From the NCBI GenBank assembly GCA_903927345.1, contig CAIYMO010000011.1, forward strand, positions 1 through 64,000: a stretch of DNA of 64,000 bases. The letters are read 5' to 3'. The notes under the pieces are model-generated. The model worked only from the letters and a program-made list of their open reading frames with translations, did no database searches and was not told the origin of the DNA. The DNA is from an uncultured Armatimonadota bacterium (GTDB lineage: Bacteria > Armatimonadota > Fimbriimonadia > Fimbriimonadales > Fimbriimonadaceae). The translations under genes and the position numbers were made by a program. Shown here piece after piece: positions 1,942 through 6,380 of this stretch. The stretch's first letter is position 1. Every line of letters begins with the position of its first letter.

Positions 1942-2448
1942 ATGAAGTCTTGGGTACTGGTTGGAATGATGGGTGCAGGCAAGAGCACGGTTGGCCGTCG
2001 CCTTGCTGAACTTGCCAGTCGTGATTTCATTGACACCGATCAGCTGATTGTCAATCGACTCGGCAAGAGCATTGAGCGGATCTTTGAGCAGTACGGGGAG
2101 CAGACGTTTCGCGATCACGAAACAAGCATCATCCAATCTCTAACACCGGGTCCAAACATTGTATCAACAGGAGGCGGCGCAATCATGCGAGCCGAAAACC
2201 GAGAAGCCCTCTCCAAAATTGGTACAACGATTTACCTACGCGTCTCAAAAGAGCAGTTGATCGAACGTTTGAAAACGAGTAGGAAGAAGAGGCCCTTGCT
2301 GAAACGCGACGATTGGGAAACAGCATTTCAGAAAATCTTTGATCAGCGAAGCGAAATCTACGAGAAATGCGATCTTATCGTTGACCTCGATAATCTCTCC
2401 CTTGAAGACGCCGCTGACCGACTCTATAAGGACCTTAACAATGAGTGA
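1942..2448 (+). CDS. aroK: Shikimate kinase
   Basis: Phosphorylates shikimate to shikimate 3-phosphate with ATP in aromatic amino acid synthesis. The 168-residue length is normal. Walker A G-M-M-G-A-G-K-S-T is at residues 8-16. The shikimate-binding pair D31/D33 (I-D-T-D), R57 (F-R-D-H-E) and the STGGGA loop (75-80) are all present. It heads a chain of overlapping genes; its stop overlaps the aroB start by 8 bp, so coupled translation is likely. No clear Shine-Dalgarno precedes ATG 1942. Confidence 0.95.
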   Translation: MKSWVLVGMMGAGKSTVGRRLAELASRDFIDTDQLIVNRLGKSIERIFEQYGEQTFRDHETSIIQSLTPGPNIVSTGGGAIMRAENREALSKIGTTIYLRVSKEQLIERLKTSRKKRPLLKRDDWETAFQKIFDQRSEIYEKCDLIVDLDNLSLEDAADRLYKDLNNE

Positions 2449-3448
2449 TCTTTTCGTAAAGTTGCATTCCGGATCAACTCAAATCAAGTTCGAGTCGCTT
2501 CAAGTCGGGACTGATGCCTTAGTCGTGACCGATTCAAATCTCTCATCCAGATTGTCGAGCTATCAGCCAATCGTCGTCCCGGCAGGAGAACAGTCGAAGA
2601 ATCTTCAGCAGTATGGATCGATACTCGACCAACTCTCTGCGCGTGGAGCAAAGCGTAAGACCAAGCTCGTTGCAGTAGGAGGCGGAGTGATTGGTGACTT
2701 GGTTGGTTTTGCCGCTGCCACCTACATGCGCGGAATCCCTCTCATCCAAGTGCCCACGACCCTTCTGGCAATGGTTGACAGCTCGGTCGGCGGAAAAGTT
2801 GGTATCGATACGCACGGCGGGAAGAATCTCGTTGGAGCCTTCTATCCTGCCCAAGTGGTTTATGTCGATGTTAGCTGGCTGAAGACACTCCCGCAGCTGC
2901 AGTGGGCATGCGGAATGGCAGAGGTGATCAAGTACGGCTTGATCATGGATGCTGAGCTTCATGAATCTCTCTCGACGTCGCCAATGACTGAGATGGATGA
3001 ACGGAGATCAAGCGAGGTTATCCGTAGGTGCATCGAACTTAAAAAGAAGGTCGTTGAAGCAGACGAATTCGAGACAACCGGTTATCGGGCAATTCTCAAT
3101 TTTGGGCATACGATTGGACATGCCATCGAAAAACTGACCAACTACGAACAATACACCCATGGTGAGGCCATCGCTGTGGGAATGTACGTCGAATCGATCA
3201 TTGGCGAAAAGCTCGGACTATCCACACCTGGTCTAGCCAAGGAAGTAGCTGCGATCCTCGAAGCACATTCACTTCCAACGAACTCTCTTGTTCTCAAGGA
3301 TGTTGAACACATAATACAATTAATGAGAGGGGACAAGAAATCGGTGCGAGGCGAAATATCCATGAGCTTAGTGACGCAAATTGGCGAAGCAAGACTGGTC
3401 CACGATATTCCGGAATCTCTTGTCCGCGAGGTGCTTAGTGCAACTTGA
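2441..3448 (+). CDS. aroB: 3-dehydroquinate synthase
   Basis: Converts DAHP to 3-dehydroquinate, using NAD and a metal. The NAD-binding GGGVIGD (about residues 80-86), the PTTLLAMVDSSVGGK segment, MAEVIKYG, the metal-site NFGHTIGHAIE and HGEA are all visible. It starts at ATG 2441, overlapping aroK by 8 bp. At 335 residues it is slightly shorter than the usual 350-360, mostly at the N-terminus. The aroK-aroB pairing is common in bacteria. Confidence 0.95.
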   Translation: MSDLFVKLHSGSTQIKFESLQVGTDALVVTDSNLSSRLSSYQPIVVPAGEQSKNLQQYGSILDQLSARGAKRKTKLVAVGGGVIGDLVGFAAATYMRGIPLIQVPTTLLAMVDSSVGGKVGIDTHGGKNLVGAFYPAQVVYVDVSWLKTLPQLQWACGMAEVIKYGLIMDAELHESLSTSPMTEMDERRSSEVIRRCIELKKKVVEADEFETTGYRAILNFGHTIGHAIEKLTNYEQYTHGEAIAVGMYVESIIGEKLGLSTPGLAKEVAAILEAHSLPTNSLVLKDVEHIIQLMRGDKKSVRGEISMSLVTQIGEARLVHDIPESLVREVLSAT

Positions 3449-3653
3449 TCGATACCGGCCACTGATCGCCTGTGTCCTCTTTGGCATTCTAGCCATCGCT
3501 AACCTTGCGTATGTCTTTGCCTACTCAAACGGATCGGTAGCGGATATCTCTGCGAAGTGGGACATGCCGCAAGTCAAGATTCTTAACTTGGTGCTTGTGA
3601 TCGCTCTTGTAGCCGTAGGGTTCGTCAAGCCCAACGTGGAGGACGACTCGTGA
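3438..3653 (+). CDS. Small two-helix membrane protein between aroB and the PASTA gene
   Basis: A 71-residue protein starting at GTG 3438, preceded by GAGG at 3428-3431. It overlaps the end of aroB by 11 bp and the start of the next gene by 4 bp (GTGA). Two hydrophobic segments (about residues 8-27 and 49-63) flank a short loop with acidic residues. I recognise no family. The tight overlap with the PASTA receptor gene suggests co-translation and possibly a membrane partner, which is inference. Confidence 0.7.
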   Translation: MQLDRYRPLIACVLFGILAIANLAYVFAYSNGSVADISAKWDMPQVKILNLVLVIALVAVGFVKPNVEDDS

Positions 3654-5446
3654 TCGGAGAAACACTTGGCCTTCGATATGACATTCAGACGAAGATCATT
3701 GAAGGGCCGATCTTTACGATGTATTCCGCACGCGATCGTCTCAGCGGTCGTAGTGTCGGAATCAGGGAGATCAAATCCCCATTCAACGATGAGATGGAGT
3801 TCATTCGATCTCTCGTGCAATTGATTCCAAAGCTGACAGTTGGTCATCCAGCAATCGAGAATCTGCAAGAAATTTTTGAGGAGAAAGGTCAGCACTACCT
3901 GCTTTCCGAAATGCCAAAGGGCTCCCTCTTGCGAGACAGGATCAAGCGCTTTGCTCCCTTCACTGTGCCAGTTGCGCTCGCAACTGCACAGGCCGTAGCA
4001 GAAGCCCTTGACGCCCTTCATCAATCGGGAATCGCCCACGGAGACGTCGGACCGCACAATATTGTCGCCACCCATGATGGAAGCGCAAAAATTCAGCTCG
4101 CGGGGATATGGCGCACTTACCCACTGAGCCGCACCGCCGGTGCCGCGGTTCTGCCCCAGATGGCACCGTACCTGGCTCCAGAAGTCTGTATGGGTGCCGA
4201 GCCTAACCCTCTCTCCGACCTTTACAGCTTGGGGATCATTCTTTACGAGCTTCTGGTCGGCACAGTGCCGTTCCAAGGCGAGAATCCAACCGCAACCACC
4301 ATGCGGCACATCAGTAGCCCTGTCCCGAGCTTGAGAGGGATCAATGCTTCTATTCCAGTAGCTGTAGAGCAATTGGTGTCGAAGCTGCTCGCCAAGAAAC
4401 CAGAGAATAGATTCCAATCAGCCCATGAATTGGTGATCGAGCTTAGGCAAATCAGCGATCAACTTCGGTTCGGACGAGCACCTTCAGCCAAAAAGTCCGA
4501 TGAACCCGCCCAAGCACCTGTCGTTGAACCAGCCAAGCCCACTCGCAATCAACGTAAAGTAGAAAAGCCCAAGCCGCTAGCGTCGGGAGAATCTGAAGAG
4601 GACGCCAAAGCCAAACGGGTCAAAAAAGATCGCGACGTTCCAAGTTGGCTGATGGGATTAATCGCGGTGGCCATCCTTGGAGCTGCTGGCATGATCATGG
4701 CCTTTGTCGTCGATCTCGCCCAGAAGCCTAGAGAAATCAAAACTCCAAATGTGCGCGGAGTCAGTGTTTCCGAGGCCAGGGAACAGGTGCGCAAGCTCAA
4801 GCTGAGTGTTCGCGTCGCCAGTAAGGAGCCGAACGAACGACTCGAACCCGACCACATCATCAGCACGCGCCCCGCACCTGGTCAGCTGATTCGTGAAGGC
4901 GGGACGATCGATCTCACCGTCAGCTCGGGCTCACGGCGCGTCAAAATGCCTAGCTTGCTCAACATGACGGCCGACGAGGCAAAGATCGCGCTTGGTGCAA
5001 TGAATCTTGAGCTCGAGGGGCGCCCTGCCCGAATCACAATCAGGAAGAACGAAGCGGTCCCAGGGGCAATTATCAAGCAGCTACCAGAGGCGGGAATGGA
5101 AGTGAGCCGCTTCAGCAAAGTCCGAATCTGGATCGCTGCCTATTCAGATAACCCACTCGGCTCACTCCCTGGAGAGAGTGATAGTCAGGATGGTGCGATC
5201 GCAAGGAGCTTCAAATTTGAGCACAAGGTCAGCAAGGCTGACGGTGAAGTTCGAGTCAGTATCGAAATGACCGACGAAGCCGGTACCACCGAGGTTCACA
5301 ACGACTCGTATTCGAACGGCGACACCATCACGGTAAACAAGATCGGCTACGGGCCAAAGGCGACATTCAAGGTTTACTATGACGGTGTCCTCCAAGACAC
5401 GATCGACGTTGAGCCCAAGCTCACCGGTGCCAAACCAACACCATGA
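3650..5446 (+). CDS. PASTA-domain Ser/Thr kinase-like receptor, probably a pseudokinase
   Basis: A 598-residue membrane receptor of the PrkC/PknB type. The kinase-like domain spans about residues 8-270, a transmembrane helix 331-355, two PASTA repeats about 364-426 and 430-497, and an extra external domain to 598. PASTA domains bind peptidoglycan fragments. The ATP site looks dead: the VAIK lysine is R39 (V-G-I-R), DFG is replaced by L150-A151-G152, and the catalytic-loop lysine is G134 (H-G-D-V-G-P-H-N). The HRD aspartate (D132) and APE (176-178) remain. GTG 3650 follows GGAGG at 3639-3643. Proximity to rpe matches the prkC neighbourhood of Firmicutes, though rsgA is absent here. It may act as a scaffold or sensor rather than an enzyme. 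Confidence 0.85.
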   Translation: MIGETLGLRYDIQTKIIEGPIFTMYSARDRLSGRSVGIREIKSPFNDEMEFIRSLVQLIPKLTVGHPAIENLQEIFEEKGQHYLLSEMPKGSLLRDRIKRFAPFTVPVALATAQAVAEALDALHQSGIAHGDVGPHNIVATHDGSAKIQLAGIWRTYPLSRTAGAAVLPQMAPYLAPEVCMGAEPNPLSDLYSLGIILYELLVGTVPFQGENPTATTMRHISSPVPSLRGINASIPVAVEQLVSKLLAKKPENRFQSAHELVIELRQISDQLRFGRAPSAKKSDEPAQAPVVEPAKPTRNQRKVEKPKPLASGESEEDAKAKRVKKDRDVPSWLMGLIAVAILGAAGMIMAFVVDLAQKPREIKTPNVRGVSVSEAREQVRKLKLSVRVASKEPNERLEPDHIISTRPAPGQLIREGGTIDLTVSSGSRRVKMPSLLNMTADEAKIALGAMNLELEGRPARITIRKNEAVPGAIIKQLPEAGMEVSRFSKVRIWIAAYSDNPLGSLPGESDSQDGAIARSFKFEHKVSKADGEVRVSIEMTDEAGTTEVHNDSYSNGDTITVNKIGYGPKATFKVYYDGVLQDTIDVEPKLTGAKPTP

Positions 5447-6093
5447 AGTACGAACTTGCTCCTTCAATCCTCAGCTTTGATTTAACTGCGCTTTCGACCT
5501 CAGTTCCGAAGTTGATGGCGGCAGGTGCTCATATCGTCCATTTAGATGTGATGGATGGTCAGTTCGTGCCACCGATCACCTTCGGAGATGCCCTTGCTGC
5601 AAATCTTCGCAAGCACACGGACGCGCCGATGGAAGCCCACCTCATGACCCTAACTCCAGAGAGGCACTTCGATGCATTTATCAAAGCGGGGTGCAAGCGA
5701 ATCATCTTCCATGCAGAGGCAACGGTGCACGCTCATCGGCTCATTCAGAGCCTCAAGAGCCAAGGAATCGAAGCAGGTGTAGCGATCAATCCGGGAACTC
5801 CAGTCAGTGTTCTTGAGCCGATCATCGACGACATCGATATGGCACTCGTAATGACGGTTAACCCAGGCTGGGGAGGCCAGTCGTTCATTCCGTCCACCAT
5901 GCCCAAAATCCAGTGGATTCGGGAGCGCAGACCAGAGATGGATATTCAGGTTGACGGAGGGATTGACCCGGTCACCTTGCCTCAGGTGATCTCGGCTGGG
6001 GCAAACGTTTTCGTGGTGGGTAGCTACTTGCTCCGCGCACCGAGCCTAGAGGAGGGAGTGCAATCAATCGTAAGTGGCTTCCCCTCAAACTGA
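5443..6093 (+). CDS. rpe: Ribulose-phosphate 3-epimerase
   Basis: Interconverts ribulose 5-phosphate and xylulose 5-phosphate in the pentose phosphate pathway. The 216-residue TIM barrel shows APSILS, the metal-binding HLDVMDG, EAHLM, TVNPGWGGQ and VDGG motifs in the expected order. ATG 5443 overlaps the preceding stop by 4 bp (ATGA), so it is translated from the same message as the PASTA gene. Its product feeds ribulose 5-phosphate metabolism, which fits the riboflavin gene ribD downstream. Confidence 0.95.
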   Translation: MKYELAPSILSFDLTALSTSVPKLMAAGAHIVHLDVMDGQFVPPITFGDALAANLRKHTDAPMEAHLMTLTPERHFDAFIKAGCKRIIFHAEATVHAHRLIQSLKSQGIEAGVAINPGTPVSVLEPIIDDIDMALVMTVNPGWGGQSFIPSTMPKIQWIRERRPEMDIQVDGGIDPVTLPQVISAGANVFVVGSYLLRAPSLEEGVQSIVSGFPSN

Positions 6094-6380
6094 TCGTCAC
6101 AATTTCGTTGGTGGTCGGACTCGGTCTCGCTGCGAGCTGGCCTTGGACGCTCGGACGAGTTCCAGGTGCAAAGGACTCAATTGAGTCGAAGCTGGAGTTC
6201 CTCCAAACCGGAGGCATTCTTGTCTTCGCAACTCTTGCCTCGCTGGTTACTGCTTCCGTAGGCGCAATCATCCTCGCCCGAGCGGCTCGCGAGGAGTATC
6301 GCGAAGAGCTAAGCGAAAACCTTAAAGACCTTGTCACCGAGACTCAGGAGGCAATCAATCGAAAACGAGCTCAAGATTGA
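6063..6380 (+). CDS. Small two-helix membrane protein; apparent ATC start
   Basis: About 105 residues: a positively charged N-terminus, a first membrane helix (LIVTISLVVGLGLAA), a second helix (GGILVFATLASLVTASVGAII), then a charged helical tail rich in Glu and Arg. No family recognised. The in-frame canonical starts (TTG 6108, GTG 6111) fall inside the first helix and have no Shine-Dalgarno. GGAGGG at 6051-6056 lies exactly 6 nt before an in-frame ATC at 6063, which would give a sensible N-terminus (N-R-K-W before the helix). A conservative start would be 6108. It overlaps rpe and, by 23 bp, ribD. Confidence 0.6.
   Translation: MNRKWLPLKLIVTISLVVGLGLAASWPWTLGRVPGAKDSIESKLEFLQTGGILVFATLASLVTASVGAIILARAAREEYREELSENLKDLVTETQEAINRKRAQD

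Follow-up and report, generated by a model that had tools for sequence, protein, structure and literature searches.

A PASTA receptor with a degenerate kinase active site in the Armatimonadota order Fimbriimonadales

The coupling of cell-wall state to protein phosphorylation in bacteria is usually exemplified by PASTA kinases. Among the membrane pseudokinases of bacteria, the multi-pass protein MviN and EssB/YukC both lack PASTA repeats. A review of bacterial pseudokinases covers seven families and names PASTA solely in its reference list (PMC12599244). The ActPs2 family is defined by a Lys to Arg change in strand β3, an Asn in place of the HRD Asp and a DFG motif that is mostly deleted (PMC12599244). 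A literature search of limited reach returned no description of a PASTA pseudokinase and, as far as it shows, no order has been described in which such a protein is the sole PASTA receptor.

Here we analyze a gene of an uncultured Armatimonadota bacterium (Fimbriimonadales, Fimbriimonadaceae; GCA_903927345.1) located in positions 1-64,000 of contig CAIYMO010000011.1; this whole stretch of 64,000 nucleotides is referred to as the window. The host genome (G000) comprises 3.1 Mb in 57 contigs. We read the gene product as a PrkC-type cell-wall receptor with a pseudokinase domain that acts as a scaffold or switch, with a small two-helix membrane protein as its likeliest partner, and we give this reading a probability of about two in three.

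Domain layout of the receptor

The receptor gene and the domains that it encodes are located as follows.

3650..5446, + strand: PASTA receptor gene with a putative pseudokinase domain; intact ORF, GTG start, 598 aa, Pkinase and PASTA matches
3674..4435, + strand: kinase-like domain, residues 9-262; Pfam PF00069, 101 bits; fold match to PknA/PknB
4643..4720, + strand: membrane helix, residues 332-357; a single helix in the AlphaFold2 model
4739..4927, + strand: PASTA repeat 1; 47.5 bits, PASTA fold matches
4940..5137, + strand: PASTA repeat 2; 31.8 bits, PASTA fold matches
5204..5419, + strand: C-terminal Ig-like beta domain, about residues 519-590; six strands in the models, Foldseek

A preliminary description of this DNA had assigned to the protein the PrkC/PknB layout of a kinase-like domain, a membrane helix and two PASTA repeats, and the Pfam, AlphaFold2 and fold matches all bear this out. 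The Pfam kinase domain was detected at residues 12-259 with 101 bits (cut-off 31.7). The NCBIfam PASTA-kinase model NF033483 matched residues 2-534 with 300.7 bits, which is below its curated cut-off of 450. In the AlphaFold2 model (mean pLDDT 84.5), most blocks of the kinase domain exceed 90, and a low-confidence linker (residues 284-331) precedes the membrane helix. As in PASTA Ser/Thr kinases, an N-terminal protein-kinase fold is thus followed by a helix and then by PASTA repeats. Comparison of the kinase fold with known structures gave PknA/PknB at Z 31-34 and an rmsd of about 2-3 Å; these were the nearest among the matches listed by the structure search, and the absence of MviN from the matches listed excludes nothing.

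The extracellular part, modeled alone, reached a pLDDT of 90.1, and its top Foldseek match was the whole extracellular region of Staphylococcus aureus PrkC (3py9). It is this match over the whole region that brings out the C-terminal Ig-like domain beyond the PASTA repeats, which the preliminary description had overlooked. VIA-align superposed the two extracellular parts with Z 10.8 over 206 residues; since the rmsd was 9.2 despite this score, the domains are angled differently from those of 3py9.

The active site and its conservation within the order

The register of the active site was established by direct alignment to the solved structure of StkP and by alignment to a collection of 80 relatives that includes 78 canonical ones. 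Both alignments give one and the same register, in which the following elements are placed.

3695..3721, + strand: degenerate glycine loop I-I-E-G-P-I-F-T-M (canonical G-x-G-G); I17 and P20 stand at the first and third Gly positions
3764..3766, + strand: R39, replacing the VAIK Lys; register against StkP and canonical relatives
4037..4060, + strand: catalytic loop HGDVGPHN; R131 to G and K134 to G, D132 and N137 retained
4097..4105, + strand: L150-A151-G152, replacing DFG; register against StkP and relatives
4109..4120, + strand: W154-x-x-Y157, directly after the lost DFG; residue counts across families
4466..4474, + strand: R-F-G motif, residues 273-275, beyond the last kinase-fold helix; conservation across the order

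Aligned in register with the solved and canonical relatives, the receptor thus departs from all three hallmark catalytic motifs. PASTA kinases are recognized by intact VAIK, HRD and DFG motifs, and the receptor has R39, HGD (H130-G131-D132) and LAG in these places; a kinase fold that lacks the VAIK Lys and the DFG-Asp corresponds to the general definition of a pseudokinase. The position of the αC Glu falls on Q57 or L58, varying with the alignment, and neither is a Glu. The domain is probably incapable of normal phosphotransfer. The losses named in the preliminary description (R39, LAG at 150-152 and G134, the position of the catalytic-loop Lys) were found in both alignments, and its list was correct but short: the HRD Arg is a Gly, the αC Glu is absent, and I17 and P20 stand in the glycine loop. 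Its further statement that only the HRD Asp and the APE motif (176-178) survive holds for these two elements but not for the word "only", as H130, N137, D190, G195 and R254 are kept in addition to D132. We sought, and did not find, an alignment that supplies the active site with an Asp-Phe-Gly equivalent or with a Lys from another position, which would speak against a degenerate kinase; the register is unambiguous. Among 25 close relatives, the N-lobe contains no invariant Lys or acidic residue that might restore the active site from another position.

A search of 61 genomes gave matches in every one and orthologues, full or split, in almost all; nearly every genome of the order has an orthologue at the same genomic place. 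Sixty of the 61 orthologues with readable active-site columns lack at least one of the VAIK-Lys, the HxD-Asp and the DFG-Asp. The sole exception (G039) has all three together, but carries a Cys at the catalytic-loop Lys. The losses differ between families. In f1, the family of the window, VAIK-Lys and DFG-Asp are both lost, with R39 in 36 of 39 members and DFG-Asp in none; f5 has Arg at the VAIK Lys (7/7) and retains DFG; f2 retains the VAIK Lys and has Gly at the DFG-Asp. As the preliminary description had suggested checking, the substitutions are thus kept in related genomes. The canonical HRD PASTA kinases of the phylum have Lys at the VAIK position (16/16) and Ala at that of W154 (16/16). 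W154 itself is found in 38/39 members of f1 and 7/7 of f5, Y157 in 37/39 of f1, 7/7 of f5 and 13/13 of f2, and P20 in 37/39 of f1. All or nearly all receptors of the order have the R-F-G motif, which is also frequent in the HGD clade described below and is unconserved in HRD PASTA kinases.

The survival of D132 and N137 is a point against our reading, and it would fit an unusual active kinase with D132 as the base, ATP held by R39 or a different basic residue, and an alternative mode of metal binding, as in atypical kinases. Within f1, the HxD Asp is present in 37/39 members and the Asn in 29/39. Escherichia coli YegI is reportedly a kinase without the conserved motifs, which also counts against a dead enzyme. 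In addition, Arg can sometimes stand in for the β3 Lys, as in the bacterial pseudokinases of the DYD family, which carry this substitution, lack the αC Glu and have been modeled in the ATP-bound form (PMC12599244). We nevertheless find an active kinase improbable: the window protein has lost the DFG-Asp, the αC Glu, the loop glycines and the catalytic-loop Lys, the aligned relatives offer no invariant substitute acid or Lys, and three orthologues (G016, G011 and G038) have lost even the HxD Asp with the gene still present. Another possibility is a nucleotide-gated switch, in which no phosphate is transferred and a nucleotide is still bound as an on/off signal. The partly retained catalytic loop is compatible with such a switch, as is R39, which is nearly invariant and not drifting, but in the neighborhood of the pocket, the conserved bulky residues P20, W154 and Y157 are similar, in sequence position only, to the aromatics said to fill the pocket of MviN (PMC12599244). 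We regard gating by a nucleotide as rather unlikely.

In 25 close relatives, five residues of the altered active site (R39, H130, G131, W154 and Y157) do not vary, and the site is therefore constrained rather than drifting. Between the window receptor and that of genome G018, the kinase part is 87% identical and the linker 54%. Because dS had reached saturation in comparisons of the window with its nearest relatives, dN/dS was read from closer pairs of f2 only; it was 0.07 and 0.13 for the kinase part in two such pairs. Judging from these sequence comparisons, the kinase-like domain is under purifying selection. A decaying gene, or an artefact of sequencing or assembly, could be invoked to explain the in-frame TGA inside the matched stretch of one orthologue (G005) and the TAA in another (G058). 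This explanation is already refuted, however, by purifying selection and by identical substitutions in independent genomes, and most of the 33 genera have intact receptor ORFs; we consider it extremely improbable.

The receptor is the single PASTA protein of its own genome. Among 113 genomes of the order, 105 have PASTA repeats, and as 102 of these 105 have exactly two, the receptor is very probably the only PASTA protein in almost every genome.

The HGD lineage and its locus

The survey of the phylum drew on the best PASTA-kinase matches in about 40 further families. A permissive DNA pattern for the HGD loop, which also matches other kinases, served only to find candidates, and an alignment-based search of genome contigs returned mostly canonical kinases of Firmicutes and Actinobacteria. 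The PASTA kinases of the phylum split into two sets, one canonical with HRD and one with HGD (rarely HAD or HGA). The HGD set sits mostly at the locus aroK-aroB-X-KIN-rpe-ribD, where X is a small ORF and KIN the kinase-like gene; aroB, rpe and ribD were not found adjoining the canonical HRD kinases of the phylum within the fetched stretches. In trees, the HGD set forms one clade both without the catalytic columns (92 rows, SH-aLRT 98) and with them (81 rows, SH-aLRT 99). Since an HGD and an HRD PASTA kinase occur together in families f27 and f36, the HGD line is a separate lineage and no simple replacement.

Outside the order, HGD proteins mostly have the Lys, the Asp and DFG, with an Arg at the catalytic-loop Lys in 27 of 31; f39 and f8 provide basal HGD members in which the Lys, the Asp and DFG are all retained. 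Losses of catalytic residues recur in f1, f2, f5, f11, f12, f17 and f28. The fewest state changes on the tree are six for the VAIK-Lys, four for the HxD-Asp and five for the DFG-Asp, numbers that are rough because many inner branches are weak. Three loci of other classes, in f11, f12 and f28 (L227 of G094, L230 of G138 and L122 of G151), have lost at least two catalytic residues at the same locus, with the states R/HGA/DIG, R/HGD/NFS and R/HGD/GFG; these losses apparently arose independently.

The genes that flank the receptor in the window are the following.

1942..3448, + strand: aroK-aroB, upstream neighbors; conserved gene order
3438..3653, + strand: two-helix membrane protein, 71 aa; inferred GTG start, overlaps the receptor start by 4 nt
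5443..6093, + strand: rpe (ribulose-phosphate epimerase), downstream neighbor; conserved order aroK-aroB-X-KIN-rpe-ribD

The receptor lies beside rpe as prkC does in Firmicutes, in agreement with the preliminary description, and rpe is also close by in 61 of the 78 canonical relatives of our collection. The ORF directly upstream of canonical Firmicutes-type kinases was a PP2C phosphatase in all six tested. At the HGD locus, this slot X holds the two-helix ORF at 59 of 79 HGD loci and at 0 of 17 HRD loci, the number of helices in small X ORFs being taken from a hydropathy scan only. In the window, the probable start codon of the ORF is the GTG at 3438, and the stop codon of the ORF overlaps the GTG of the receptor (GTGA, 3650-3653); the same 4-nt overlap occurs at 47 of the 59 loci. 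Changes in this ORF between close relatives are distributed over the three codon positions as 25/8/42, and their concentration on third positions marks it as a real coding sequence. A Pfam search with the protein gave no family match, and a weak NCBIfam match to CrgA (E 0.035) was treated as chance. The suggestion that it may be the partner of the receptor gains support from the conserved synteny and from the 4-nt overlap across many families, and the two proteins may form a complex. Its absence, or failure to be recognized, at 20 of the 79 HGD loci, including most of those of f2, counts against the partner part of our reading.

Other features of this region were recorded. A second small membrane-protein ORF without a clear family match lies between rpe and ribD (6108-6380, + strand), and many genomes of the order have an equivalent in that position; the other classes that were tested yielded none. 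Upstream, aroK adjoins the gene of a GspD/PilQ-like secretin that contains a long linker rich in glycine (182-1876), and the secretin-aroK-aroB neighborhood is conserved in several families. The secretin gene is preceded by a tandem array of CATGGGCGGCATGGGCGGCGG at 1-145, with 6 copies, 100% over 1-127 and perfect or near-perfect across the whole array. At loci of genus g23 of f2 (L049 and others), aroB and the two-helix ORF were not found upstream of the receptor, although rpe is present downstream at most of these loci.

The receptor could instead be a substrate or an allosteric activator of the one canonical kinase of its genome (G000:C34), and not the partner of the two-helix protein. Apart from the receptor, the genome encodes just this one protein with a kinase domain, whose motifs are intact, and it has a PP2C gene adjoining an FHA gene on contig C57; a precedent is MviN, which is phosphorylated by PknB to recruit FhaA (PMC12599244). 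The receptor and kinase loci show no genetic linkage, however, and we hold such a link to be possible but doubtful. The FHA gene (G000:C57:79780-81069) and the directly adjoining PP2C gene may constitute a separate phospho-signaling pair.

Proposed role and comparison with known systems

We favor a receptor with a pseudokinase domain and a two-helix partner. By analogy with PASTA kinases, its outer part, with two PASTA repeats and the Ig-like domain, would most likely still recognize peptidoglycan or its precursors. The cytoplasmic kinase-fold domain probably signals by a change of shape or by the docking of proteins, a scaffold-like role for which EssB/YukC and MviN provide the analogy (PMC12599244). 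Judging from gene order, the co-translated two-helix membrane protein, in the slot of the Firmicutes PP2C, would be the most likely partner, which makes it a candidate open to testing. For the whole order, we see even odds that the pseudokinase is the only PASTA cell-wall receptor, forms a dedicated complex with the two-helix protein in the place of PP2C, and derives from the phylum-wide HGD lineage by repeated loss of catalysis with the receptor kept.

An order that keeps the receptor and drops catalysis would represent a natural separation of sensing and scaffolding from phosphorylation. Such an order would likewise reveal which parts of PrkC are held by selection without the enzyme, and a single phylum offers a graded evolutionary series of intact, partial and dead forms.

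Among described systems, the receptor resembles PrkC/StkP/PknB (NF033483) in domain order, kinase fold, PASTA repeats and place near rpe, and S. aureus PrkC also in its C-terminal Ig-like domain. Unlike these kinases, it lacks catalytic residues, scores 300.7 bits against their cut-off, and adjoins a two-helix membrane protein in place of a PP2C gene. The pseudokinase domain of MviN (ActPs3) is likewise part of a membrane-linked bacterial protein tied to cell-wall synthesis but belongs to a different lineage. EssB/YukC of type VII secretion is also a membrane pseudokinase with a non-catalytic, structural role, but it belongs to a secretion machine. The DYD and ActPs2 families share the β3 Lys to Arg change, but unlike the receptor they occur mainly in Actinobacteria, DYD also in Firmicutes (PMC12599244). 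ActPs2 has moreover lost the HRD Asp; the receptor has the Arg of that family, but it retains the HxD Asp, and its DFG is substituted rather than deleted. Finally, Clostridioides difficile CD2148 is similar as an atypical membrane Hanks-type protein that is possibly a pseudokinase, but it is devoid of PASTA repeats and coexists with an active PrkC (PMC9674922), whereas the receptor described here is the only PASTA protein of its genome.
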